Assembly (NCBI GenBank): GCA_021731815.1 | Contig: JAKFWO010000032.1 | Coordinates: 1-64,000 of the forward strand | Source: Hyphomonadaceae bacterium | Lineage (GTDB): Bacteria > Pseudomonadota > Alphaproteobacteria > Caulobacterales > Aquidulcibacteraceae | Length of the DNA stretch: 64,000 nucleotides | Direction of reading: 5' to 3' | In this document: piece by piece, positions 8,898 through 61,170 of the stretch | Layout: each line of letters starts with the position of its first letter | Position numbering within the stretch: position 1 is the stretch's first letter | Program-made: the position numbers and the translations under genes | Notes under the pieces: model-generated | Seen by the model: the letters and a program-made list of their open reading frames with translations, nothing else | What the model was told of the DNA's origin: nothing | Database searches by the model: none

Positions 8898-9029
8898 TTG
8901 TTTTCTCCAGCGGGGCTTCGTGACAAGACTGAAATATTTGTGTTTCGTTGTGGAAGATTCATGTGCAGGGGATTTATTGGTGTCGTCACTCCAGATTCCG
9001 AAGTCGAAAGTTGTCCTTCGTGCAACACC

Positions 9030-9141
9030 AGAGCGCGTCCAGACAAAGTGGAGTCCGGTTTTCGCCTGAACGCGCTCTAAATTATTGAATCCGAGCATTT
9101 TCAATTCAAACATTCGGCTCGGATTTCCATGAAAATGCTCG
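9030..9141 (+). repeat. Bipartite palindromic element, copy 1 (112 bp)
   Basis: Palindrome 1 is 9030-9078: AGAGCGCGT paired with ACGCGCTCT around a core with AAAGTGGAGTCCGGTTTTCG. A 13-nt AT-rich spacer (AAATTATTGAATC) follows. Palindrome 2 is 9092-9141: CGAGCATTTTC paired with GAAAATGCTCG. The same two-part layout recurs at 60946-61055, 48156-48267 and 53685-53810. It sits upstream of the caspase operon. Confidence 0.85.
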
Positions 9142-9173
9142 AGGGCCGATCCAGGAGAATTAGTCTTTCCGCT

Positions 9174-15602: not shown

Positions 15603-16607
15603 ATGTTTTCAGGCAATTGCAGGCGTGGAATTCATGCCCTGATCGGCTTGGCAGCCTCTGTGATGGCCCATTCGGCACTTGCCCAGGACGCCCAAATCGA
15701 CCCGGTCGGGGAGGCCGCGGAGGAATTGATCGTTCAACAGGCGCGCAAAGGCCCCAATCTGTGGCTCGCCGAGAAGGCCGGGCACGAAATGTGGATCATG
15801 GGGATCCAGTCCCCGGGCCCCAAGGGTCTGAAATGGGATTCTTCGGATGTCGGGAAAGTGATTGCCGAGGCCGATATTGTTGTTCCCTTCCGCTGGGAGC
15901 TCGATGCAGGCGTTGGAGTGTTCAAGGGGATCGGGCTTCTGCTCCGCGCGCGAAAGGTAACGAAGAATGATGACGGAGCGCGGCTGAAAGATCTGGTGCC
16001 CGCCGATCTCTATGCCCGCTTCAGCGCGCTGCGAAAGCAATTCGGTGCCGACAATGATGAATGGGAGGAATTCCGTCCGGCCTTTGCCGGTTTGCAATTG
16101 ACCGAACAGGCGCTCGAAAAAAACAAGCTTCGGCAAGGTGACTTTCTATGGTCTCAGGCCATGAAGATTGCAAAGAAAGAAAAAAAGCCGATCCTTGAAA
16201 CGAAGATCAAGGAAAATCTGGATTTCAAGGAAATTCTCCGCAAGCTCGATCAGGTTTCTCCGACCGATGAACTCGCCTGTTTTTCGGAAACCATCACTGC
16301 ACTGGAGAAAGATTTGCCCAAAGTCCGGCGCAAGGCCTTTGCCTGGGCCGCCGGCGATGTGCAAACCATTCGCGCGCTCAGCCGCGAGAACAAGGCCGAA
16401 ACCGCCTGCGGCGATCCGGTGCTCGCTATTCCGGAGCTTCGCCATCTGCGCGACAAGGGCGACGGGCTGGTGTTCAAAAATCTGATGGAAGCCGCCGCGA
16501 AGCACAAATCCGTTTTCGTACTGGCCGACATGACCTCGGTCGTGCGCACCGACAAGGGATTGCTCAATCGGCTCAAGGCCGAAGGCTTCACCATTGACGG
16601 GCCATAG
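15603..16607 (+). CDS. TraB/GumN-family protein, exported
   Basis: This 334-residue protein has a signal peptide (1-27, cut after ALA). It follows the TraB/GumN layout: PNLWLAEKAGHEMWIMGIQS (family pattern LW....ygs.ylLGT.H), LKWDSSDVGKVIAEADIVV, a long helical middle and a C-terminal FVLADMTSVV.TDKGLLNRLKAEGF strand-helix unit (family VGAGHL.G..G.l..L...GY). The usual GTxH histidine is replaced (GIQS) and the C-terminal GAxH is ADMT, so metal-dependent activity proposed for the family may be lost. Confidence 0.68.
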   Translation: MFSGNCRRGIHALIGLAASVMAHSALAQDAQIDPVGEAAEELIVQQARKGPNLWLAEKAGHEMWIMGIQSPGPKGLKWDSSDVGKVIAEADIVVPFRWELDAGVGVFKGIGLLLRARKVTKNDDGARLKDLVPADLYARFSALRKQFGADNDEWEEFRPAFAGLQLTEQALEKNKLRQGDFLWSQAMKIAKKEKKPILETKIKENLDFKEILRKLDQVSPTDELACFSETITALEKDLPKVRRKAFAWAAGDVQTIRALSRENKAETACGDPVLAIPELRHLRDKGDGLVFKNLMEAAAKHKSVFVLADMTSVVRTDKGLLNRLKAEGFTIDGP

Positions 16608-16609
16608 AG

Positions 16610-16717
16610 AATTTTCGAAAAAATCGAGCCGGATTTCCAAACTGAAATTGCTTTGGTTCAATCATTCGGAGCGCGTTCCGGCGAGAAACCGGACTCTCTT
16701 TCTTCTGAACACCCTCC
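16610..16717 (-). repeat. Bipartite palindromic element, degenerate copy (minus orientation)
   Basis: Palindrome 1 in reverse orientation is 16668-16717 (GGAGCGCGTTCCGGCGAGAA... to CCCTCC), matching the reverse complement of the 9030 copy with several changes. The spacer (GGTTCAATCATTC) and a decayed palindrome 2 precede it. It lies between the convergent TraB-like and thpR genes. Confidence 0.65.
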
Positions 16718-16733
16718 AGGATCCGAAGCCCGG

Positions 16734-46698: not shown

Positions 46699-47631
46699 AT
46701 GAGTAACATCCTGAATCTTGCCGCAGACGCGGCCCTGAATTTTGCCGCAAATGCGGCGCTGCCCTTCCACAATCTCGATCCCGTGGCGTTCAGAATCCCG
46801 ACTTTCGGGCTGTTCGGAATCGATGGATTGCCCATTCGCTGGTATGGCCTTGCTTATATGGCGGGGATCATCTGTGCCTGGATTTGTCTCGGCCGGCTGG
46901 TCACGGCGACATCCCTGTGGGCGAGCCCGCCTGCCCATCCCCAGCCCCCGTCGCGCGAGGCGATCGACGATCTCGGCTTCTGGGCGATCTTCGGGATTGT
47001 GGTGGGCGGGCGGCTCGGCCATGTGCTGTTCTACAATACCGAAATCCTGTGGACCCGGCCGGCGGAAATCCTGCAATTATGGAATGGGGGGATGAGCTTC
47101 CATGGCGGATTTCTTGGCGTGGCGCTGGTCGTCGTGCTGGTCGCCCGCCAACATCGGGTGAAATTGCTGACCCTTGCCGATATCTGTGCGCCGGCGGCTA
47201 CTTTTGGACTGTTTTTCGGGCGGATGGCCAATTTCGTCAATGGCGAGCTCTATGGAAGGCCGACGGACCTGCCCTGGGGCATGGTCTTTCCGGCGGCCGA
47301 CGGTTCGGGTGCATTCACCGACCCCCGCCATCCTTCCCAACTCTATGAGGCCGGGCTCGAAGGCATCGCGCTTGCAGTGATCCTGCTCTCGGCGACGGTC
47401 CGGGGTAAATCCTTGCGCCGCCCCGGGCTCAATTGCGGGCTCTTCCTGCTGTTTTACGGGATTTTTCGAATTGCGATGGAACAATTCCGCCAGCCGGATG
47501 ATTATCTTCCGGAATTTCTCCAGGGGTCGCTGACCATGGGCGGGCTGCTCTCGCTGCCCATGGTGGCGATCGGGGCCTTTATGGTGTGGCGCGCGCTGCG
47601 CCCGGCCGGCTCTGCCGCCCGTCCGGCGTGA
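46699..47631 (+). CDS. lgt: Prolipoprotein diacylglyceryl transferase
   Basis: This 310-residue inner-membrane protein has seven predicted helices and the Lgt signature GRMANFVNGELYGRPTDLPWG (about 174-194, with the conserved Arg/Asn), the HGGFLG segment and the late HPSQLYEA motif. It transfers diacylglycerol to lipobox cysteines. The first 20 residues contain a duplicated octapeptide-like unit (NLAADAAL / NFAANAAL) from a 2 x 24 bp DNA repeat at 46711-46758. The stop overlaps the next gene (GTGA). Confidence 0.95.
   Translation: MSNILNLAADAALNFAANAALPFHNLDPVAFRIPTFGLFGIDGLPIRWYGLAYMAGIICAWICLGRLVTATSLWASPPAHPQPPSREAIDDLGFWAIFGIVVGGRLGHVLFYNTEILWTRPAEILQLWNGGMSFHGGFLGVALVVVLVARQHRVKLLTLADICAPAATFGLFFGRMANFVNGELYGRPTDLPWGMVFPAADGSGAFTDPRHPSQLYEAGLEGIALAVILLSATVRGKSLRRPGLNCGLFLLFYGIFRIAMEQFRQPDDYLPEFLQGSLTMGGLLSLPMVAIGAFMVWRALRPAGSAARPA
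46711..46758. repeat. In-frame tandem repeat, 2 x 24 bp, at the lgt N-terminus
   Basis: CTGAATCTTGCCGCAGACGC... and a near copy lie directly after the start codon and duplicate eight residues. Confidence 0.75.
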
Positions 47632-48866
47632 CATCGGCGCTGTTTCCCGCCATCGCTGATGAGATCGCGGCCTGTGGACCGCTGACACTCGCCCGTTTCA
47701 TGGAGATCGCGCTTCACGATCCGGCCAATGGTTATTATGCCCGCCATCCCGGTCTGGCGATGCCGGGCGCGGAAGGCGATTTCGTGACAGCGCCGGAAAT
47801 CTCGCAAATGTTTGGCGAGCTGATCGGCGCATGGGCGATCGAGGCATGGCGTGGAATGGGCGCCCCGGACCGGTTCCGCCTCGTGGAACCCGGCCCCGGG
47901 CGCGGCACGATGATGGCCGATCTCTGGCGCGTCGCGCGGCTCGTGCCGGATTTCCGGACGGCGGCGCAGATCCGGCTGGTCGAGCGCAGTCATCCCTTGC
48001 GCGCAGTTCAGGCGCAGGCCTTGGCGGATGCGCCGGTCGGGTGGTGGGAAACCATTGATGCAGCGCTCGGACCGGGCGAAAGCGAACCGCTCCCCTTCAT
48101 TCTGCTGGCCAATGAGTTTCTCGATTGCCTGCCGGTTCGCCAATGGCGACGTTTGGCGCATTTTCAACAAAAGTGTAGTCGCGGTTTTGTGTCCGAAAAT
48201 GCGCAGATTCAAACAAATAGAGCATCGAACCCAACAAAATCCGGCTCGGATTTTGTCGACGATGCTCCAGGTGCGCAGCTTGAAGAACGCCGCGTGGCCC
48301 TTGCCGACCGGAAACTGGTGTTTCAATGGGTTCCGGCATGGACCGAGCCCGGAATCCCCAATGAATTCAGCCATCCCCGCGCGCTCTATCCGGATGGCGA
48401 AATCATCGAAACCCGCACCGCCGATCACCATGTGCTTGGACTGCTGGCGCATGCCATGCAGCGTGCGCCGGGAATTGCCCTGTTCATCGATTATGGCAAA
48501 GCGCGCCCGGGTCCCGGAGATACGCTCCAGGCGCTTCGTGGTCACCGGAAATCAGACCCGCTAACCGATCCGGGCGAGGCAGATCTCACCGCCTGGGTGG
48601 ATTTTTCGGCACTGGAGCGGTACGGAAAATCCCTCGGGCTCGCGGTGTTTGGCCCGGTCCCGCAGGGAATCTTCCTCAACAGGCTTGGCATTGAGACGCG
48701 CGCGGCCCGCCTTGCCAACGCATCGCCTGCCCAGGCTCCGGCGATCGCGCGGGCGCTGGCGCGGCTGATTCATGCCTCCCAAATGGGGGGGCTGTTCAAG
48801 GTGATAGCCCTGGCATCACCGGGTCTGTTTGGCCCCGATCATCCGCCGACCGGTTTTGCGCCCTGA
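47628..48866 (+). CDS. MidA/NDUFAF7-like (DUF185) methyltransferase carrying an in-frame palindromic element
   Basis: The GTG at 47628 overlaps the lgt stop (GTGA); the product is about 412 residues. Family landmarks are LTLARFMEIALHDPANGYYA, GDFVTAPEISQMFGELIGAW, VEPGPGRGTMMADLWR (SAM loop), ILLANEFLDCLPVRQW, IALFIDYGKARPGPGDTLQ and HASQMGGLFKVIAL. The human relative methylates an arginine of complex I subunit NDUFS2. After RQWRR the protein carries about 39 extra residues (LAHFQQKCSRGFVS through DDAP, about 194-232) encoded by a copy of the dispersed bipartite palindrome at 48156-48267; the family sequence resumes at LEERRVALAD. The frame is intact, so the gene is probably functional. Confidence 0.85.
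   Translation: MTSALFPAIADEIAACGPLTLARFMEIALHDPANGYYARHPGLAMPGAEGDFVTAPEISQMFGELIGAWAIEAWRGMGAPDRFRLVEPGPGRGTMMADLWRVARLVPDFRTAAQIRLVERSHPLRAVQAQALADAPVGWWETIDAALGPGESEPLPFILLANEFLDCLPVRQWRRLAHFQQKCSRGFVSENAQIQTNRASNPTKSGSDFVDDAPGAQLEERRVALADRKLVFQWVPAWTEPGIPNEFSHPRALYPDGEIIETRTADHHVLGLLAHAMQRAPGIALFIDYGKARPGPGDTLQALRGHRKSDPLTDPGEADLTAWVDFSALERYGKSLGLAVFGPVPQGIFLNRLGIETRAARLANASPAQAPAIARALARLIHASQMGGLFKVIALASPGLFGPDHPPTGFAP
48156..48267 (+). repeat. Bipartite palindromic element inserted in a coding sequence (112 bp)
   Basis: Palindrome 1 is 48156-48204 (GCGCATTTTC paired with GAAAATGCGC, perfect). After a 15-nt spacer, palindrome 2 is 48220-48267 (GAGCATCG paired with CGATGCTC, enclosing ACAAAATCCG-GCT-CGGATTTTGT, a perfect 10-bp stem with 3-nt loop). 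It closely matches the intergenic copy at 53685-53810. The total length equals that of the copy at 9030-9141. Confidence 0.9.
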
Positions 48867-49003
48867 GCGCCACCTTGTGTCCGCGCCGGCCGAAAATGAC
48901 ACCTGCCCGGCAATTCGATTGATTGCAATTTTATTCAGTCATTTAACCGGAAATTCAACATAGATCTGTATCAGGGATGTCTCTCGAAGAAATCGGACCC
49001 CAC

Positions 49004-49639
49004 ATGCGACGCTTGATGATTGCGGCGCTGGCCCTGTTCGTTGTTGCGACTCAAGGCCACGCCAGAGCGGAACCGGATCAGAATGATCCCTCCGCACGCG
49101 AAAGCTTTCCCCGCTTTGCGCGGCTGAAATTCGACGATGTGCGCGCGCGCGGCGGCGCGGGGGAGAGTTTCCCCGTGCTCTGGCGATATCAGCGCAAAAA
49201 TCTGCCGGTCTATGTGCTGGAACCCTCGGGCGACTGGCGCCTTGTGCGTGACGCCTGGGGCGATCAGGCCTGGGTGCATCGGAGCATGATCGAGAACCAT
49301 CGCGGCGCCCTGGTCATGCCGACCGGCGAAATCAAGGCGATCCTGCGCAAATCCCCGGGCGCGGCGGGACGCGCCATTGCACGTCTTGCTCCGGGCGTGG
49401 TGGCGCGCATCGCTTATTGTCAGGCCGATTGGTGCGAGATCGAGGTGGACAAGCGCAAGGGATGGGTCGAGCGCCTCGCAATTTGGGGTGATTCTCCCGA
49501 TGACGCCTTGCCGCGTTTGACCAGCGCCCGGGGATCGGGCAATTTCGCGGGCAATGGACTCACGGGCAATGGACTCACGGGCAATGGACTCACGGGCAAT
49601 GTGCAGTTTTCGAGCTTTTCGGCGCTCCCGCGTCCGTAA
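49004..49639 (+). CDS. Exported bacterial SH3-domain protein
   Basis: The ATG at 49004 (MRRLMIAALALFVVATQGHA) gives about 211 residues with a signal peptide; a frame extension to 48977 is possible. Two SH3b-like units follow: FDDVRARGGAGESFPVLWRY with WRLVRDAWGDQAWVHRSMI, and ILRKSPGAAGRAIARLAPG with WCEIEVDKRKGWVERLAIWG. Such domains bind peptidoglycan or proteins in the periplasm. The C-terminus carries a 5-residue repeat (GNGLT x 3) from a 15-bp DNA repeat. Function unknown. Confidence 0.8.
   Translation: MRRLMIAALALFVVATQGHARAEPDQNDPSARESFPRFARLKFDDVRARGGAGESFPVLWRYQRKNLPVYVLEPSGDWRLVRDAWGDQAWVHRSMIENHRGALVMPTGEIKAILRKSPGAAGRAIARLAPGVVARIAYCQADWCEIEVDKRKGWVERLAIWGDSPDDALPRLTSARGSGNFAGNGLTGNGLTGNGLTGNVQFSSFSALPRP
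49549..49601. repeat. In-frame tandem repeat, about 3.5 x 15 bp
   Basis: GGGCAATGGACTCAC repeated near the 3' end of the SH3 protein gene encodes GNGLT pentapeptides. Confidence 0.85.
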
Positions 49640-49675
49640 ACCCCTTTGCCTGAAGGCGCGTGTCGAACTCCCGGA

Positions 49676-50947
49676 TCAAATCCGCGCTACCTTGGCTCCG
49701 CAGGCGGTGAGTTTTTCCTCCAGCCGCTCGAATCCGCGATCGAGGTGATAGACCCGGTTGACCAGGGTCTCGCCCTGGGCGGCAAGCCCCGCCACGACCA
49801 GCGAGACCGACGCCCTGAGATCGGTCGCCATTACCGGGGCACCACGCAGCAAGGGCACGCCGCGCACCACGGCTTCATTGCCGCGGATATGGATATCGGC
49901 CCCCATGCGCATCAGCTCCGGCACATGCATGAACCGGTTCTCGAAAATCGTCTCGCGGATGATCGAGGCCCCTTCCGCGGTGCAGACATAGCCCATGAAC
50001 TGGGCCTGCAGATCGGTGGGAAAGCCGGGAAAGGGGCGGGTCTCGATGTCGACCGGCCTCGGCCGGCCGGGCTCGCGCGCAATCCGCACGCCGTCGGCTT
50101 CAATATTGGTCCGGGCCCCGGACTGGCGAAGCACCTGCAGCAGCGACGACAAATGTCCGGCCCGCGCGCCGTGCAGCAGCACATCGCCGCCGGCCGCCGC
50201 CGCGGCCAGCGCATAGGTGCCGGCCTCGATGCGATCGGGCATGACAGCAAAATGCGCGCCATGGAGCCGGGAAACGCCCGTGATGCGGATCGTGGTGCCC
50301 CCGGCCCCGCTGATCCGTGCCCCCATGGCAGTCAGGCATTCGGCGAGATCAATAATTTCGGGTTCGCGCGCGGCGTTTTCGATGATGGTCTCGCCCTCCG
50401 CCAGTACGGAAGCGAGCATGGCATGTTCGGTGGCCCCGACCGAGACGAAGGGAAAAATGATCTCGGCACCCTTTAATCCCCGGGGGGCGCGAGCAATGAC
50501 ATAGCCATCCTCGAGCGCGATTTCGGCGCCCAGTGCCTCCAGCGCCTTGAGATGGAGATCGACCGGCCGCGCCCCGATCGCACAGCCGCCCGGCAGGCTG
50601 ACCCTTGCCTCGCCCTCGCGCGCCAGAAGCGGACCCAGAACGTTGAAGCTCGCGCGCATCTTGCGCACCAGATCATAGGACGCAAAGGTCGATCCGATCC
50701 GGTCGAAGCGGAAGCGCGCGACGCTGGTGCCCGCCGGCCAATCGACCGAACCGCCGTCCGGATTGCCGAGCGTCGCCAACAGATCGCAGAAAAAGCGCGT
50801 ATCGGCGAGACTGGGCATGTTCCCGAGGACGAGTTCATCCGCCGTCAACAGGGCCGCCGCCTGAAGCTTGAGCGCTGAATTCTTGGCACCCGACACCGGG
50901 ATCGTGCCGAGCAATGGCTGCCCACCCTTGATGATGATGCGATCCAT
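49676..50947 (-). CDS. murA: UDP-N-acetylglucosamine 1-carboxyvinyltransferase
   Basis: The start is the ATG at 50947 ([26 protein letters not shown]), giving 423 residues, the usual size. Catalytic Cys122 lies in [15 protein letters not shown] and the UDP-GlcNAc contact in SGAKNSAL. Having Cys (not Asp) predicts fosfomycin binding. It carries out the first committed step of peptidoglycan synthesis. It is 84 bp downstream of the COQ9/TetR-like gene. Confidence 0.97.
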
Positions 50948-51031
50948 CAGATATCCGGAGATTGCGAGAAAACAGATGCGACCGCTTAGGCCGATGCGGG
51001 GGGGAGCGCAAGCCGCCCTCAATTACCGGTG

Positions 51032-51754
51032 TCAGGCCGGGGCTTGCCCGTCGGGTCGACCAAAGCGGCGCACGCGCCGGGCGAGATCCTCGATCTGACG
51101 GAGATCACCATCGAGCCGCGCCATCAGGCGCGCGAAATCGCCGGATTCGTCCCCCCGCCATGCCTGTTCGGCCCGCCACAATACGACCGCCAGCGCGGCA
51201 TGACGGGGATCGGCCGGCAGGCTGTCCTGGCCTGCAAGAAAGAACAGCCGTCGCGCCGTGCGCAAGGCCGCGCCAGCCATGATTGGTGGCCCCGCGAGAT
51301 TGCGCAGCGGCCAATTGAGCAGCGACAGGGCCCCCTTGCGCTGCTCCTCCATCGCCTCGAACCGGTTCATGGCGAGGTCGAAAAACACATCGCGCAAGGC
51401 GGTCGATTGAACGGCGAACGATTTTTCGGAGGGATCTCCGTCGGATTTTTCCGGTGCCAACTCTGCGCTCACTGACGCTCCGGGCGCAACCAGCCGGGAA
51501 TCCCAATGGTCCTGGACGAGGTCATAGAGCGAGGCGCGGCGCGCCCGATCATAGATATCTTCGGCCGGCAGGCCGGTTGTCGCGAAAAATTCGATGACGG
51601 GGACGGTGCCAAAGCCGCGCGCGGCCGAGAGTTCGAGGATATTGCGCACAAACAGCGCCCGCTCCCCGGGTGACAGCAAGGCACCGAGCGGGTTGGCCGC
51701 GAGCGGGCGGCTTTTGGCGAGGGAAGCAGCGAAAGCGGCGGCGATGTTTCTCAT
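51032..51754 (-). CDS. COQ9/TetR-like protein
   Basis: This 240-residue helical protein has an N-terminal part that looks like a degenerate TetR helix-turn-helix (LELSAARGFGTVPVIEFFA, then ASLYDLVQDHWDS). The C-terminal half resembles COQ9 and its TetR-like relatives (RDVFFDLAMNRFEAMEEQR, LAVVLWRAEQAWRGDESGDFARLMARLDGDLRQIEDLARRV, quoted by parts). It could be a lipid-binding ubiquinone factor or a regulator; sequence alone does not decide. It precedes murA on the same strand. Confidence 0.5.
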   Translation of the reverse strand: MRNIAAAFAASLAKSRPLAANPLGALLSPGERALFVRNILELSAARGFGTVPVIEFFATTGLPAEDIYDRARRASLYDLVQDHWDSRLVAPGASVSAELAPEKSDGDPSEKSFAVQSTALRDVFFDLAMNRFEAMEEQRKGALSLLNWPLRNLAGPPIMAGAALRTARRLFFLAGQDSLPADPRHAALAVVLWRAEQAWRGDESGDFARLMARLDGDLRQIEDLARRVRRFGRPDGQAPA

Positions 51755-51824
51755 GGCGATAATTTACGCCACCCTTTCGCCGCCGGCGATCTTATTTTCA
51801 GTCACCGGAACGTGCAGAAAACGC

Positions 51825-52388
51825 TCAGGCCGCATCGTCGATTTCGAACCCGAATTCCTCTGGTCGCGGATAATCGATGATGATGCCGAGGCCCTCGGCC
51901 ACATGGTTGAGATATTGGGAGAATGACGCCCAGCACACGATTTCGACGATCTCGGCCTCGGTCAGGCCAGCCGCGCGCCCTGTGTCCATCTCGGTCGGCA
52001 GGGTTTCGCGGTCGATCCGCGCTACTGCGCTTGCGATCCGCAGAATGGAATCGGTTCGGGCATCGGTCGACCGACCGCGGGAATATTGGATGATTTCATC
52101 GCGTTCCGCCCCCAATTGCCGCGCAAAGGTGGCATGGGCAGAGACGCAATATTGGCATTTGTTCTGCGCTGAAATGGCGAGGATGATCGCCTCGCGCTCG
52201 AGGGCCGTGAGATTCCCGTCCGACAACGCCCCGTGAAAGGCGGAGGTCGCGAACAAGGCGGCCTCGGAATGGGCGATCGTCGAGAAAAAATTCGGCAGGC
52301 TCGAAAAGCGCCGGTCAATCTCGTTCAGCATTTGCCGAACTTTGGGACTGGCTTCAGACAAGGCGAGCGGCGAAAACTGTTTTGACAT
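51825..52388 (-). CDS. AhpD-like / carboxymuconolactone decarboxylase family protein
   Basis: The ATG at 52388 (MSKQFSPLALSEASPKVRQML) has GGGGAC upstream; the frame runs further to 52541 without support. The 187-residue product has the CxxC redox motif in NKCQYCVSAHATFARQLG, followed by YSRGRSTDARTDSILRIASAVAR. The family are peroxidase-related thiol proteins (AhpD-type, with a proton relay His after CxxC). It probably acts in oxidant defence; the partner is unknown. Confidence 0.85.
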   Translation of the reverse strand: MSKQFSPLALSEASPKVRQMLNEIDRRFSSLPNFFSTIAHSEAALFATSAFHGALSDGNLTALEREAIILAISAQNKCQYCVSAHATFARQLGAERDEIIQYSRGRSTDARTDSILRIASAVARIDRETLPTEMDTGRAAGLTEAEIVEIVCWASFSQYLNHVAEGLGIIIDYPRPEEFGFEIDDAA

Positions 52389-52541
52389 GCTGTCCCCGGA
52401 ATTACGCTGGAAGGGCGCATGAATCACGCGCCCGCCATCTTGTGCCCGCAATTGGATCGCCGGCACGAAGGTAGAGCGTAGCGCATTAATGTTAATTGTG
52501 CCTTTAAAAGCGTCGTGGACGGCAAAACTGCCCGCGCTCAC

Positions 52542-53465
52542 TCAGGCATCCGGGCGTTTATAGGGAAAAATGCCCGCTTTGCCGAGCGCCGCCGGAACCG
52601 GGTGGCCAAGTGCCCCCTCCAGCCAATGCGCGGTCGCGATCAGCGCGTCCAGTGACAATCCAGTCTCAAACCCGGCGCGATGGAGCATGAAAACGAGGTC
52701 CTCGCTCGCCACATTGCCCGTCGCCTTCGGCGCAAAGGGACAGCCCCCGATCCCGCCGCAGGAGGAATCGAGGATGTTCGCCCCGGCCTCGATCGCGGCA
52801 AAGGCATTGGCCAGAGCGCTGGCCCGCGTATTGTGAAAATGCAGGCGCAGAAGTGAATCAGGTGCGGCCGCGCGCACGGCGTGGATGCGGGCACGGACGG
52901 TCCATGGATCGGCGACGCCAATCGTGTCACCCAGCGCGATTTCCTGCGCACCCAATGCAAAAGCGGCCGCGGCGATGTCTGCGACCGTGGATTGGGCGAC
53001 CTCTCCTTCGAACGGGCAGCCAAAGGCCACCGAAATGGTGGCCGACAGCGCGCGTTTGGCGTCTGCAACCATCGGGGCCGCGCGGCGCAGTTCGGCAAGG
53101 CTTTCTTCGGCCGTCGCGCCCTGATTGCGGATGCCGAATTCCCGGCTGGCGCAGATCACGAAATTCACTTCATCGCAACCGGCCGCGATCGCGCGTTCGG
53201 CACCACGCGCATTGAGCGCGAGCCCGATAAAAGACACGCCATTGCCGCGCGGCACTGCCGCCATGACCGCCGCCGAATCCGCCATTTGGGGCACACGTTT
53301 GGGATTGACGAAGGAGGCAGCCTCGATCCGCCGCGCACCCGCTGCGATCAGGCGGTTGATGAAGTCGAGTTTCTGTTCCGTCGACAAAAAGGTGGATTCG
53401 TTTTGCAGGCCATCGCGCGGGCCGACCTCGACGATTTCGATGTTTCGGGTGGCCGTGTGGGTCAT
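52542..53465 (-). CDS. mvaB: Hydroxymethylglutaryl-CoA lyase
   Basis: This 307-residue TIM-barrel enzyme has VEVGPRDGLQNE at the N-terminus, the metal ligands in LHFHNTRASALANAFAAIEAG and the signature cysteine loop SSCGGIGGCPFAPKATGN. It splits HMG-CoA to acetyl-CoA and acetoacetate at the end of leucine catabolism. No other leucine-degradation genes are adjacent. Its upstream region is packed with palindromic repeats. Confidence 0.94.
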   Translation of the reverse strand: MTHTATRNIEIVEVGPRDGLQNESTFLSTEQKLDFINRLIAAGARRIEAASFVNPKRVPQMADSAAVMAAVPRGNGVSFIGLALNARGAERAIAAGCDEVNFVICASREFGIRNQGATAEESLAELRRAAPMVADAKRALSATISVAFGCPFEGEVAQSTVADIAAAAFALGAQEIALGDTIGVADPWTVRARIHAVRAAAPDSLLRLHFHNTRASALANAFAAIEAGANILDSSCGGIGGCPFAPKATGNVASEDLVFMLHRAGFETGLSLDALIATAHWLEGALGHPVPAALGKAGIFPYKRPDA

Positions 53466-53517
53466 GTGCAGACCTTCGCTGTGAGGGGCAGAAAATGGTG
53501 TCAGCCAACCAGATGCC

Positions 53518-53591
53518 AGTGGTTCGAATCTGACATTTGCATCCCATTTTGGCCGTGCGCGATTGCAAATGTCAGATTCATAAGAACCACT
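53518..53591. repeat. Long palindrome (74 bp)
   Basis: The outer 8-bp arms AGTGGTTC/GAACCACT and a perfect 16-bp inner stem (GAATCTGACATTTGCA with its reverse complement) are separated on one side by a 4-nt bulge (ATAA). The loop is 22 nt. Confidence 0.85.
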
Positions 53592-53607
53592 CTGTAAACA
53601 TGGGCTT

Positions 53608-53684
53608 AGTGGAGCTTATGGACCAAACATTCGGCTCGGAGGTTGGCGCGCAAGTGGGTAGCGAATGTTTGGTCAGCTCAACTA
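53608..53684. repeat. Long palindrome (77 bp) abutting the bipartite element
   Basis: The inner stem is 13 bp, perfect (GACCAAACATTCG at 53621-53633 with CGAATGTTTGGTC at 53662-53674). Outer arms TAGTGGAGCT/AGCTCAACTA pair with one mismatch and a small bulge on the left side, the same design as the palindrome at 53518. Its 17-nt stretch CAAACATTCGGCTCGGA is identical to 9107-9123 in element copy 1. Confidence 0.85.
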
Positions 53685-53810
53685 GCGCATTTTCAACAAA
53701 AGTGTAGCCGCGGGTCTGTGTCCGAAAATGCGCAGATTCAATTACATGGAGCATTCAAATGGAGCGTCGGGCCCAACGAAATCCGGCCCGGATCCTGTTG
53801 GCGATGCTCC
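53685..53810 (+). repeat. Bipartite palindromic element (126 bp)
   Basis: Palindrome 1 is 53685-53733 (GCGCATTTTC/GAAAATGCGC, perfect), nearly identical to the coding copy at 48156. The spacer is 27 nt, lengthened by a partial repeat of ATGGAGC. Palindrome 2 is 53761-53810 (GGAGCGTCG... to CGATGCTCC), imperfect. It starts exactly where the preceding palindrome ends. Confidence 0.88.
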
Positions 53811-53918
53811 AGCGTGAAATTTGGGCCCGAAACAGACACGGATACAGGATTTATTGCACCCGGCCGGGCCTGGCCCCGATCAACACTGCGTCCTGGGCCT
53901 TGCGCCGGAAAAATGCCT

Positions 53919-53957
53919 GCCGCTTTAAGGGTGGCGTGCGGGTGCCGATAAAGCGGC
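53919..53957 (+). promoter_or_regulatory. Leader hairpin before the response regulator gene
   Basis: A perfect 9-bp inverted repeat (GCCGCTTTA / TAAAGCGGC) with a 21-nt GC-rich loop lies about 40 nt upstream of the start codon. It could be an operator or an mRNA structure. Confidence 0.4.
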
Positions 53958-53999
53958 CTCCGTCCCCGCCCGGAAAAAGCGTCGGGAACAGGAGCCATG

Positions 54000-54719
54000 A
54001 TGGGCCATATTCTGTTGGCCGAAGACGATCCCAATGTCGCGGCCTTGCTCAAGGCCTATCTCGAACGCGACGGGTTCAGCCTCAGCGTCTGTGACAATGG
54101 CCCCGCTGCGCTGCGCGAGGTCTTTGCCGGCAAGCCGGACCTCGTATTGCTCGATATCATGCTTCCTGGGCTCGATGGCTGGGAAATCTGCCGCCAGGTG
54201 CGTCAGGCCTCGACCATCCCGATCATCATCCTGACCGCGCGGATCGACGAGGCCGACCGCATCACCGGGCTGCGTCTGGGGGCGGATGATTATGTCGTGA
54301 AGCCCTTCAGCCCCGGCGAGGTGGTCGAGCGGGTCAAGGCCGTGTTGCGGCGGGGACCGGCGGGACTGCCCGCCGGCCCGACCGCCGAGCGCGACCGGGT
54401 TCTGCGCCATGGGGGAATTTCCCTGACGCCCTCGCGGTTCGAGGTGCGTATCAATAATGCGGCGCTGGCGCTCACCATGTCCGAATTTCGTATCCTCGAA
54501 GCCATGATGGGCGCGCCCGGACGGGTACTGAGCCGCGATCAATTGCTCGATGCCCTGTCGAAAAGCGAGCGCGATGTGATCGACCGGGCGATTGACGTTC
54601 ACATTCTCAATCTGAGACGGAAGCTCGAGGCGCGGATTCCGGGGTCGCAGATGATCGAGACGGTGAGGGGTATCGGCTACCGCTTGCGCCGTGATGAAAC
54701 GAAGGAGAATCCCCAATGA
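54000..54719 (+). CDS. OmpR/PhoB-type response regulator
   Basis: The second ATG (54000) is chosen because AGGAG lies 5 nt upstream; it is only 2 nt from the first ATG. The 239-residue product has a receiver domain (ILLAEDDPNVA, phosphoacceptor Asp52 in VLLDIMLPG, switch LTAR, Lys in YVVKPFSPGE) and a winged helix (about 140-232; LSRDQLLDAL, VIDRAIDVHILNLRRKLE, VRGIGYRLR). It is coupled by a 4-bp overlap to the histidine kinase. It resembles BaeR, but the signal is unknown. Confidence 0.94.
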   Translation: MGHILLAEDDPNVAALLKAYLERDGFSLSVCDNGPAALREVFAGKPDLVLLDIMLPGLDGWEICRQVRQASTIPIIILTARIDEADRITGLRLGADDYVVKPFSPGEVVERVKAVLRRGPAGLPAGPTAERDRVLRHGGISLTPSRFEVRINNAALALTMSEFRILEAMMGAPGRVLSRDQLLDALSKSERDVIDRAIDVHILNLRRKLEARIPGSQMIETVRGIGYRLRRDETKENPQ

Positions 54720-60623: not shown

Positions 60624-60945
60624 GGGTTCTTGAATGCGCTCTGGGGCGATGATCGCATTGCCCAGGAATACTGAATTTTAACAGGTCCCTTTGGGCCGGA
60701 ATTTAAACGCTTCCGGCTCGGAACTTTAGTGCAAAAATTTGCATTGCTCCTTCGGATTCATATCGGGTTCAATCCAGAATGAGATCCCTGAAGGCCGAGG
60801 GGAAACCAGAAAAACCTCTCACATATCTGGAAAAATGGCAAATCGGCTTCTGCAAAAATGTCAAATTAATGTGTTGCAAAAAAATGCAATATGGTTGAAG
60901 CTGTGGAAATTCTACATCGACCCTGGACATTCCGGGAATCGACCC

Positions 60946-61055
60946 AGAGCGCGTTTAGAGAAAGTGGAATCCGGTTTTTCGTCCGAATGCGCTCTAAATT
61001 ATTGATTCTGAACATTTTCAAATAAGTTCGGCACGAATTGCTTTGGAAATGCTCG
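60946..61055 (+). repeat. Bipartite palindromic element, copy (110 bp)
   Basis: Palindrome 1 is 60946-60995 (AGAGCGCGTT / AATGCGCTCT, one mismatch) with core AAAGTGGAATCCGGTTTTTC. The spacer is AAATTATTGATTC. Palindrome 2 (about 61010-61054) is decayed. It ends 116 bp before the receptor start. Confidence 0.8.
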
Positions 61056-61170
61056 AGGCCCCGGCGGCGAAGAAATTCGCATCGGGGAAATGGCAAGGAC
61101 AGGTAAAACCGGGCGCGCTGTCAATTGGCGTGACACCGGTGGTCGGGGAAACGCACAGGGAGATTGCGCC

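Follow-up and report, generated by a model that had tools for sequence, protein, structure and literature searches.

A dispersed two-hairpin repeat with in-frame copies in midA and two other genes outside Rickettsiales

The midA gene of the Hyphomonadaceae bacterium analysed here carries a 112-bp copy of a dispersed two-hairpin repeat, and, counting midA, copies of this family lie in frame in three genes that are unrelated to one another and come from two genera, the host proteins retaining their conserved positions, with a gain of 38 residues. We put a probability of about 0.87 on the reading that the midA segment is a copy of a non-autonomous, two-armed mobile repeat similar to the Caulobacter intergenic repeats (CIR), whose insertions are filtered by selection. 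All coordinates without a contig label are those of the window, which is the whole 64,000-nucleotide stretch of contig JAKFWO010000032.1 that was analysed. An earlier note, made from the letters alone, had picked out the insert, and what became of its claims is given with the results that bear on them.

The element in midA and its host protein

The features of the midA locus are the following.

46699-47631, + strand: upstream gene, overlapping midA by 4 bp
47628-48866, + strand: midA (DUF185/COG1565, NDUFAF7-like SAM methyltransferase), carrying the insert; from its open frame, Pfam and a structure search
48156-48267, + strand: the 112-bp insert in midA, a two-hairpin mobile repeat of class AB that adds 38 codons net in frame
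48156-48204, + strand: hairpin A, with perfect 10-bp arms at 48156-48165 and 48195-48204
48206-48210, + strand: GATTC, a GANTC site, in the linker joining hairpins A and B
48220-48267, + strand: hairpin B, with perfect 8-bp arms at 48220-48227 and 48260-48267

The arms of hairpin A read GCGCATTTTC...GAAAATGCGC and those of hairpin B GAGCATCG...CGATGCTC, the latter enclosing an inner pair CAAAATCC/GGATTTTG at 48235-48242 and 48248-48255, and the two perfect outer arm pairs bear out the earlier description of two intact palindromes in 112 bp. Two instances of the pattern GCGCATTTTCN{20,40}GAAAATGCGC are present in the window and 100 shuffles gave none, so the palindrome pattern of the midA copy is not a product of chance. 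As RNA the copy folds into two separate hairpins at -43.5 kcal/mol (z = -4.2, with 0 of 200 shuffles equally stable), and a search for structured RNA found no Rfam match for 47500-54200 at E ≤ 1. The bases flanking the copy are TG and CA.

By inspection, midA starts with the GTG at 47628, which overlaps the stop of the upstream gene (GTGA), and its stop codon is at 48864-48866; the upstream gene is one that we take from its sequence to be lgt-like, a prolipoprotein diacylglyceryl transferase. The single Pfam match in the protein, PF02636 (E = 1.4 × 10−51), covers residues 79-358 and spans the insert, and the best Foldseek matches of the modelled structure in the PDB are MidA/DUF185 structures, in agreement with the first description of the host as a MidA/NDUFAF7-like enzyme with an unbroken frame. 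The PDB relatives 1zkd, 5ztz and 4f3n each match the protein in two stretches, and the alignments of 1zkd and 5ztz skip the insert.

Of 61 genomes, 60 gave a MidA match, among them the own genome; there the gene is single, five further matches being to the repeat peptide. Among the 59 other genomes with a match, 29 loci were compared, and the segment is in none of the 29 aligned homologues. The spacing from a conserved RQ to a V is 53 residues in this MidA, compared with 15 in 25 of the 29, 19 in 3 and 20 in 1, so that 25 of 29 are exactly 38 residues shorter at the insert site. Alignment with DUF185 homologues had been proposed as a check, and the gap is there; the in-frame insertion stands, and the homologue comparison replaces the original estimate of about 39 residues by a net gain of 38, or 114 bp, which is 2 bp more than the element itself. 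The protein retains 45 of 46 positions invariant among the 29 homologues and 72 of the 74 that are 90% conserved, the altered near-invariant positions just after the insert being W to L at 217 and G to A at 223. With one spanning domain and its conserved positions kept, the gene gives no sign of the pseudogene that had been named as an alternative, and judged by its sequence midA is apparently intact.

The AlphaFold2 model, built from 30 sequences, has a mean pLDDT of 86.1, with 291 of 411 residues at 90 or above. Values below 50 are found at residues 43-45, 48-53 and 181-212, the last of these being the insert, which falls between strands 170-175 and 216-225; the insert is thus predicted to be a disordered extension of a beta-hairpin turn. 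One might ask if the segment is instead a functional, exapted MidA loop, kept by selection for a new role. The open frame in an otherwise intact protein would suit such a loop, and the changes at 217 and 223 could be a local adjustment to it, but the segment belongs to a dispersed repeat with further copies between genes and in unrelated genes, it is missing from 29 of 29 aligned homologues, and it is predicted to be disordered, so that we regard exaptation as quite improbable. Insertion of a mobile repeat, our preferred reading, leads to the question of where else the repeat is found.

The repeat family and its other in-gene copies

The window contains further copies of the repeat, in the AB class and in a related subclass, CD, together with two perfect inverted repeats just before the second AB copy.

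9028-9144, + strand: CD-class two-hairpin repeat (related subclass), a repeat match
16603-16719, - strand: CD-class two-hairpin repeat, a weaker match (56.6 bits)
53526-53541 and 53564-53579: perfect inverted repeat of 16 bp
53621-53633 and 53662-53674: perfect inverted repeat of 13 bp
53685-53809, + strand: second AB-class copy, intergenic, 125 bp (13 bp longer than the copy in midA), net length not a multiple of three
60944-61058, + strand: CD-class two-hairpin repeat, a repeat match

The second AB copy had been called nearly identical to the one in midA, at 53685-53810, which overstates the likeness: over 53685-53809 identity is 90% in the first 70 bp and 79% overall. In its RNA fold of minimum energy the first arm has other pairing partners, and this fold is less exceptional (z = -2.9, 2 of 200 shuffles equally stable).

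Two draft genomes carry most of the evidence, the own genome (G000; 2.53 Mb in 48 contigs) and that of Hyphomonadaceae bacterium MAG D5_Bin_17 (G001; 270 contigs), the latter being the only other genome in which full AB copies were seen. G000 has at least 7 AB copies at E < 10−14, 3 of them full length, and, in the stretches fetched, at least 73 full and 18 partial CD copies. G001 has at least 19-20 full AB copies, these counts being lower bounds, from searches in which for instance 14 of 64 and 40 of 69 G001 candidates were scored. Many of the G001 AB copies have a 24-bp inner insert (AGCCTGCCCCGGACTTGATCC...) nested in hairpin A, as at L087:1461-1595, with the phase kept. A third genome, G008, has a mosaic form in which hairpin A is joined to a different second hairpin (an A+E subclass). 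A DNA search at family level gave a match at E ≤ 0.01 in 5 of 60 genomes; among 398 genomes of the order, 4 had the AB peptide, at E < 10−5 in 2 and only at E > 0.001 in the other two; and a class-wide search with model R1, under stricter filters, gave 2 of 142 genomes at E ≤ 10−7, these being the own genome and one weak match.

Most copies of the family are intergenic. The consensus folds of AB and CD are both two independent stem-loops with a linker. The GANTC motif is in 72 of 79 CD and 5 of 6 AB copies of G000 (flanking stretches 42 of 149 and 3 of 9), and in 27 of 28 CD copies of G001 (flanks 12 of 54), but in only 1 of 20 AB copies there (flanks 5 of 34). In G001, 11 of 19 AB and 15 of 27 CD copies have TA at both ends; in G000 this holds for 4 of 74 CD copies, variants with TG and CA being frequent there. 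Head-to-tail triples of CD with a 113-bp period were seen at G000:C29:19354-19697, C30:4698-5041 and C1:159707-160050.

A search for further copies inside genes, as the earlier note had proposed, with their frames, gave two more in-frame cases, both in G001, which represents a related genus. The first is in its Sua5/TsaC gene, between the YrdC (PF01300) and Sua5_C (PF03481) domains, with flanks CA and TA. The linker is 83 residues long, versus 43-48 in 29 homologues, and since its length varies, the figure of 38 residues for Sua5 rests on the length of the element. The protein with the insert keeps 62 of 63 positions invariant in the 29 homologues and 86 of 93 of those 90% conserved. The second is in what by eye is a multi-pass membrane protein (no Pfam hit), with flanks TA and AG; it is matched in 23 of 60 genomes, its own among them. 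The segments matching its residues 9-103 and 142-194 are contiguous to the base in G022, leaving a gap of 38 residues, and in an alignment of 17 of the 19 fetched homologues it keeps 18 of 18 invariant positions and 26 of 28 of the 90% conserved ones. The copies in midA, Sua5 and the membrane protein have a common orientation, a common frame and a net length of 114 bp, and their sites are, respectively, a turn, a linker and a gap that has conserved segments on either side. A fourth AB copy, in G001, interrupts an IS66 transposase gene with a net 111 bp, in another frame and with one stop. Open frames running through copies at G000 C8, C24, C28 and C39 and at G001 C180 were rejected as antisense, upstream of a gene, terminal or lacking a spanning domain, and those at G001 C161 and C46 are ambiguous and were left out of the in-gene count.

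These cases also bear on whether the repeat was merely misjoined into midA in assembly or binning. Repeats are a classic source of misassembly and the genome is a draft of 48 contigs, but a single gene reads in one frame on both sides of the insert, with 38 codons gained and nothing lost, and the pattern recurs in two genes of another assembly, three such misjoins being improbable. An assembly error is also unlikely given how many sites the element occupies across two assemblies, and we give an artefact hardly any credence.

Length, frame and entry into genes

Our explanation, that mobile copies enter genes and are filtered there, depends on how the two subclasses differ. The AB consensus has one open frame, and AB lengths are mostly frame-neutral (112 + 2 or 136 + 2 bp): among full copies of G001, 15 of 19 are a multiple of three with 2 bp added and 14 of 19 are also open, and in G000 1 of 3 is frame-neutral with an open frame. 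For CD in G000, 63 of 74 full copies are 111 or 110 bp (net 113 or 112), 72 of 74 are not a multiple of three after adding 2 bp, and 49 of 74 have at least one open frame; in G001, 22 of 27 are a multiple of three with 2 bp, yet 24 of 27 are without an open frame.

Gene context was tested on 213 matches in the fetched stretches, less 61 below 45 bits and 5 near ends, leaving 147. Four of 28 AB copies are inside genes, three of them in frame, versus 0 of 119 CD copies in frame in genes; inspection of the flagged CD copies left no more than 1 that may be disruptive. The Fisher p-values are 0.006 for in-frame and 0.005 for any in-gene copies, and they are indicative since they pool copies that are related and come from two genomes. 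With the IS66 copy counted, the figures for G001 by itself are 3 of 21 AB versus 0 of 40 CD (p = 0.037), a value that precedes the re-reading of one CD copy as possibly disruptive, and with in-frame copies only AB is 2 of 21. Applied to 1172 random points, the gene-context test places 68% inside genes, so in-gene repeat copies are strongly under-represented; the coding-potential threshold misses about 10% of true in-gene points, and inspection was limited to flagged copies. The eleven CD copies flagged by coding potential read as intergenic from their flanking frames, except G001:C155:2515-2632, right after which a histidine-kinase fragment (HisKA, HATPase_c; L245:1748-2632) starts, and this copy may have truncated the kinase gene. 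In G008, 12 of 34 rows, which include duplicates from overlapping loci, were flagged as in-gene candidates, one being a duplicate; the other 11, on inspection, read as intergenic.

A stop codon at or next to a CTAG-like end closes a coding-looking frame at 31 boundaries among 123 full copies of G000 and G001 (for example L182:1566, L266:1576 and window position 16605), as if elements settle at gene ends; some of these, the one at the Sua5 copy for instance, are spurious and come from antisense frames. At L188 an FtsA-like gene terminates in the TAG of the element. In G008 a copy at L316:1507-1623 (C47) makes up nearly the whole spacer between two neighbouring genes whose sequences resemble fliR and flhB.

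The events we infer, namely transposition in trans with a 2-bp duplication, translation of the insert and selection as a filter, would run as follows. A non-autonomous element, mobilised in trans, would enter at a TA-like target and leave a net 114 bp in the gene (112 plus the 2-bp duplication). Within a gene, one in six choices of orientation and phase would keep the consensus frame open, and since AB is mostly frame-neutral and its consensus has a stop-free frame, an insertion in the right orientation and phase in a loop or linker would survive, other genic insertions being lost to selection; the survivor would be translated as a disordered segment of 38 residues. An empty site was not found at the DNA level, the listed IS66 relatives being too distant (best place 72%), so the 2-bp duplication rests on the net length and the consensus flanks.

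Those flanks, CTA before the element and TAG after, suit an IS630-type enzyme, and one candidate for the mobiliser, compatible with the reading above, is a transposase of the IS630/Tc1-mariner kind that would work in trans at CTAG targets. According to PMC2170065, elements of the IS630 family go into TA and duplicate 2 bp, and a 1991 title cited there has an IS630-associated transposon prefer the TA in 5'-CTAG-3'. Against this candidate, a search for PF13358 (IS630-type DDE_3, the sole transposase family searched) gave one match in G008 and none in G000 and G001, and the two ends of the element have only a few bases in common as an inverted repeat. We offer this mobiliser as a tentative possibility, with the odds somewhat against it.

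It might also be argued that entry into genes is an evolved trait of AB, its length and open frame being kept since genes are a usable niche. The preponderance of frame-neutral and open copies in G001 points that way, as does the phase preserved by the 24-bp inner insert. Nevertheless, by our estimate one open frame of six over 38 codons is not improbable by chance, AB copies are mostly intergenic with three in-frame cases only, no copy of the 24-bp form was found within a gene, and only 1 of the three full G000 copies is frame-neutral, so we think such a trait improbable. Returning to the filter model, AB and CD, as sister subclasses unlike in length and in their stops, form a natural experiment on the entry of selfish DNA into genes. 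A bolder statement would be that a CIR-like lineage has turned into selfish DNA that codes for protein, in a second part of Alphaproteobacteria unrelated to the first: AB, frame-neutral and open in one frame, would be admitted to genes in frame and CD, of the wrong length or rich in stops, would be barred, so that frame-neutrality may itself be favoured during spread. We think this improbable.

Comparison with known systems

A 2002 title called coding palindromes unique to Rickettsia, and one of 2005 reported them from Wolbachia; both hosts are intracellular. The family of the window includes the MAG labelled Hyphomonadaceae and is not in Rickettsiales, and in-frame copies in conserved genes there, in a repeat family whose described relatives are said to keep out of genes, suggest a wider role for small mobile repeats in adding segments to proteins.

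The Rickettsia palindromic elements (RPE) of Ogata and co-workers, according to reviews, are 105-146 bp, lie in frame in conserved protein genes and are translated, and the host enzyme was still active in the one case tested, gmk; they occur in Rickettsia, and in the published model terminal inverted repeats close a long stem-loop. The present repeat is of similar length and also in frame within conserved protein genes, but it forms two separate hairpins and is in another bacterial order. The behaviour that the earlier note likened to RPE is reinforced by the 38-residue gain, the intact gene and the two further in-frame cases, while membership of RPE is not. A 2024 review of MITEs describes in-frame RPE insertions and finds a similar mechanism conceivable in other prokaryotes. 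Palindromic elements of the Wolbachia type (WPE-like) lie in frame in addA, addB and priA, mostly without premature stops (PMC4224334); the likeness is again of in-frame inserts in conserved genes, and the difference is that Wolbachia is an endosymbiont of Rickettsiales.

Among MITE-like repeats with frames fused in frame to genes are the enterobacterial RU-1/ERIC, RU-2 and RU-3 and the Neisseria Correia element (PMC2229807 and PMC2759123). According to these papers, genes contain many copies of the open 107-bp Correia form, and the stop-filled 155-bp form is nearly confined to intergenic DNA, which parallels AB versus CD here; RU and Correia belong to other proteobacterial classes and form stem-loops by pairing of their own ends, unlike the two hairpins here, and target duplications are reported for Correia, RU-1 and RU-2.

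Closest in build are CIR1-CIR4 of Caulobacter, the CcrM-associated intergenic repeats (Chen and Shapiro 2003, as related by Delihas 2007, PMC2229807). These are about 110 bp and abundant, with two long inverted repeats as two arms and a linker, GANTC and TA ends, and the same source describes them as not found inside genes and as having multiple stops in all six frames. Our family is likewise about 110 bp, two-armed with a linker, GANTC-bearing, abundant and alphaproteobacterial, and so appears to fit most published CIR features, a likeness judged on the description; the CD copies of G001, 24 of 27 without an open frame, fit the stop-filled description, and AB differs in its open frame and its copies inside genes. 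With its two separate hairpins, the element fits the CIR description better than that of RPE. A literature search, which most subscription journals lie outside, found no intragenic CIR and no coding palindromes in a Caulobacterales-like host. The best reading is that the coding palindromes known from RPE, WPE and enterobacterial RU are met here in a CIR-like family reported as not intragenic: in behaviour the element resembles an RPE, and in build it resembles a CIR, from which its open frame and its location within genes set it apart.
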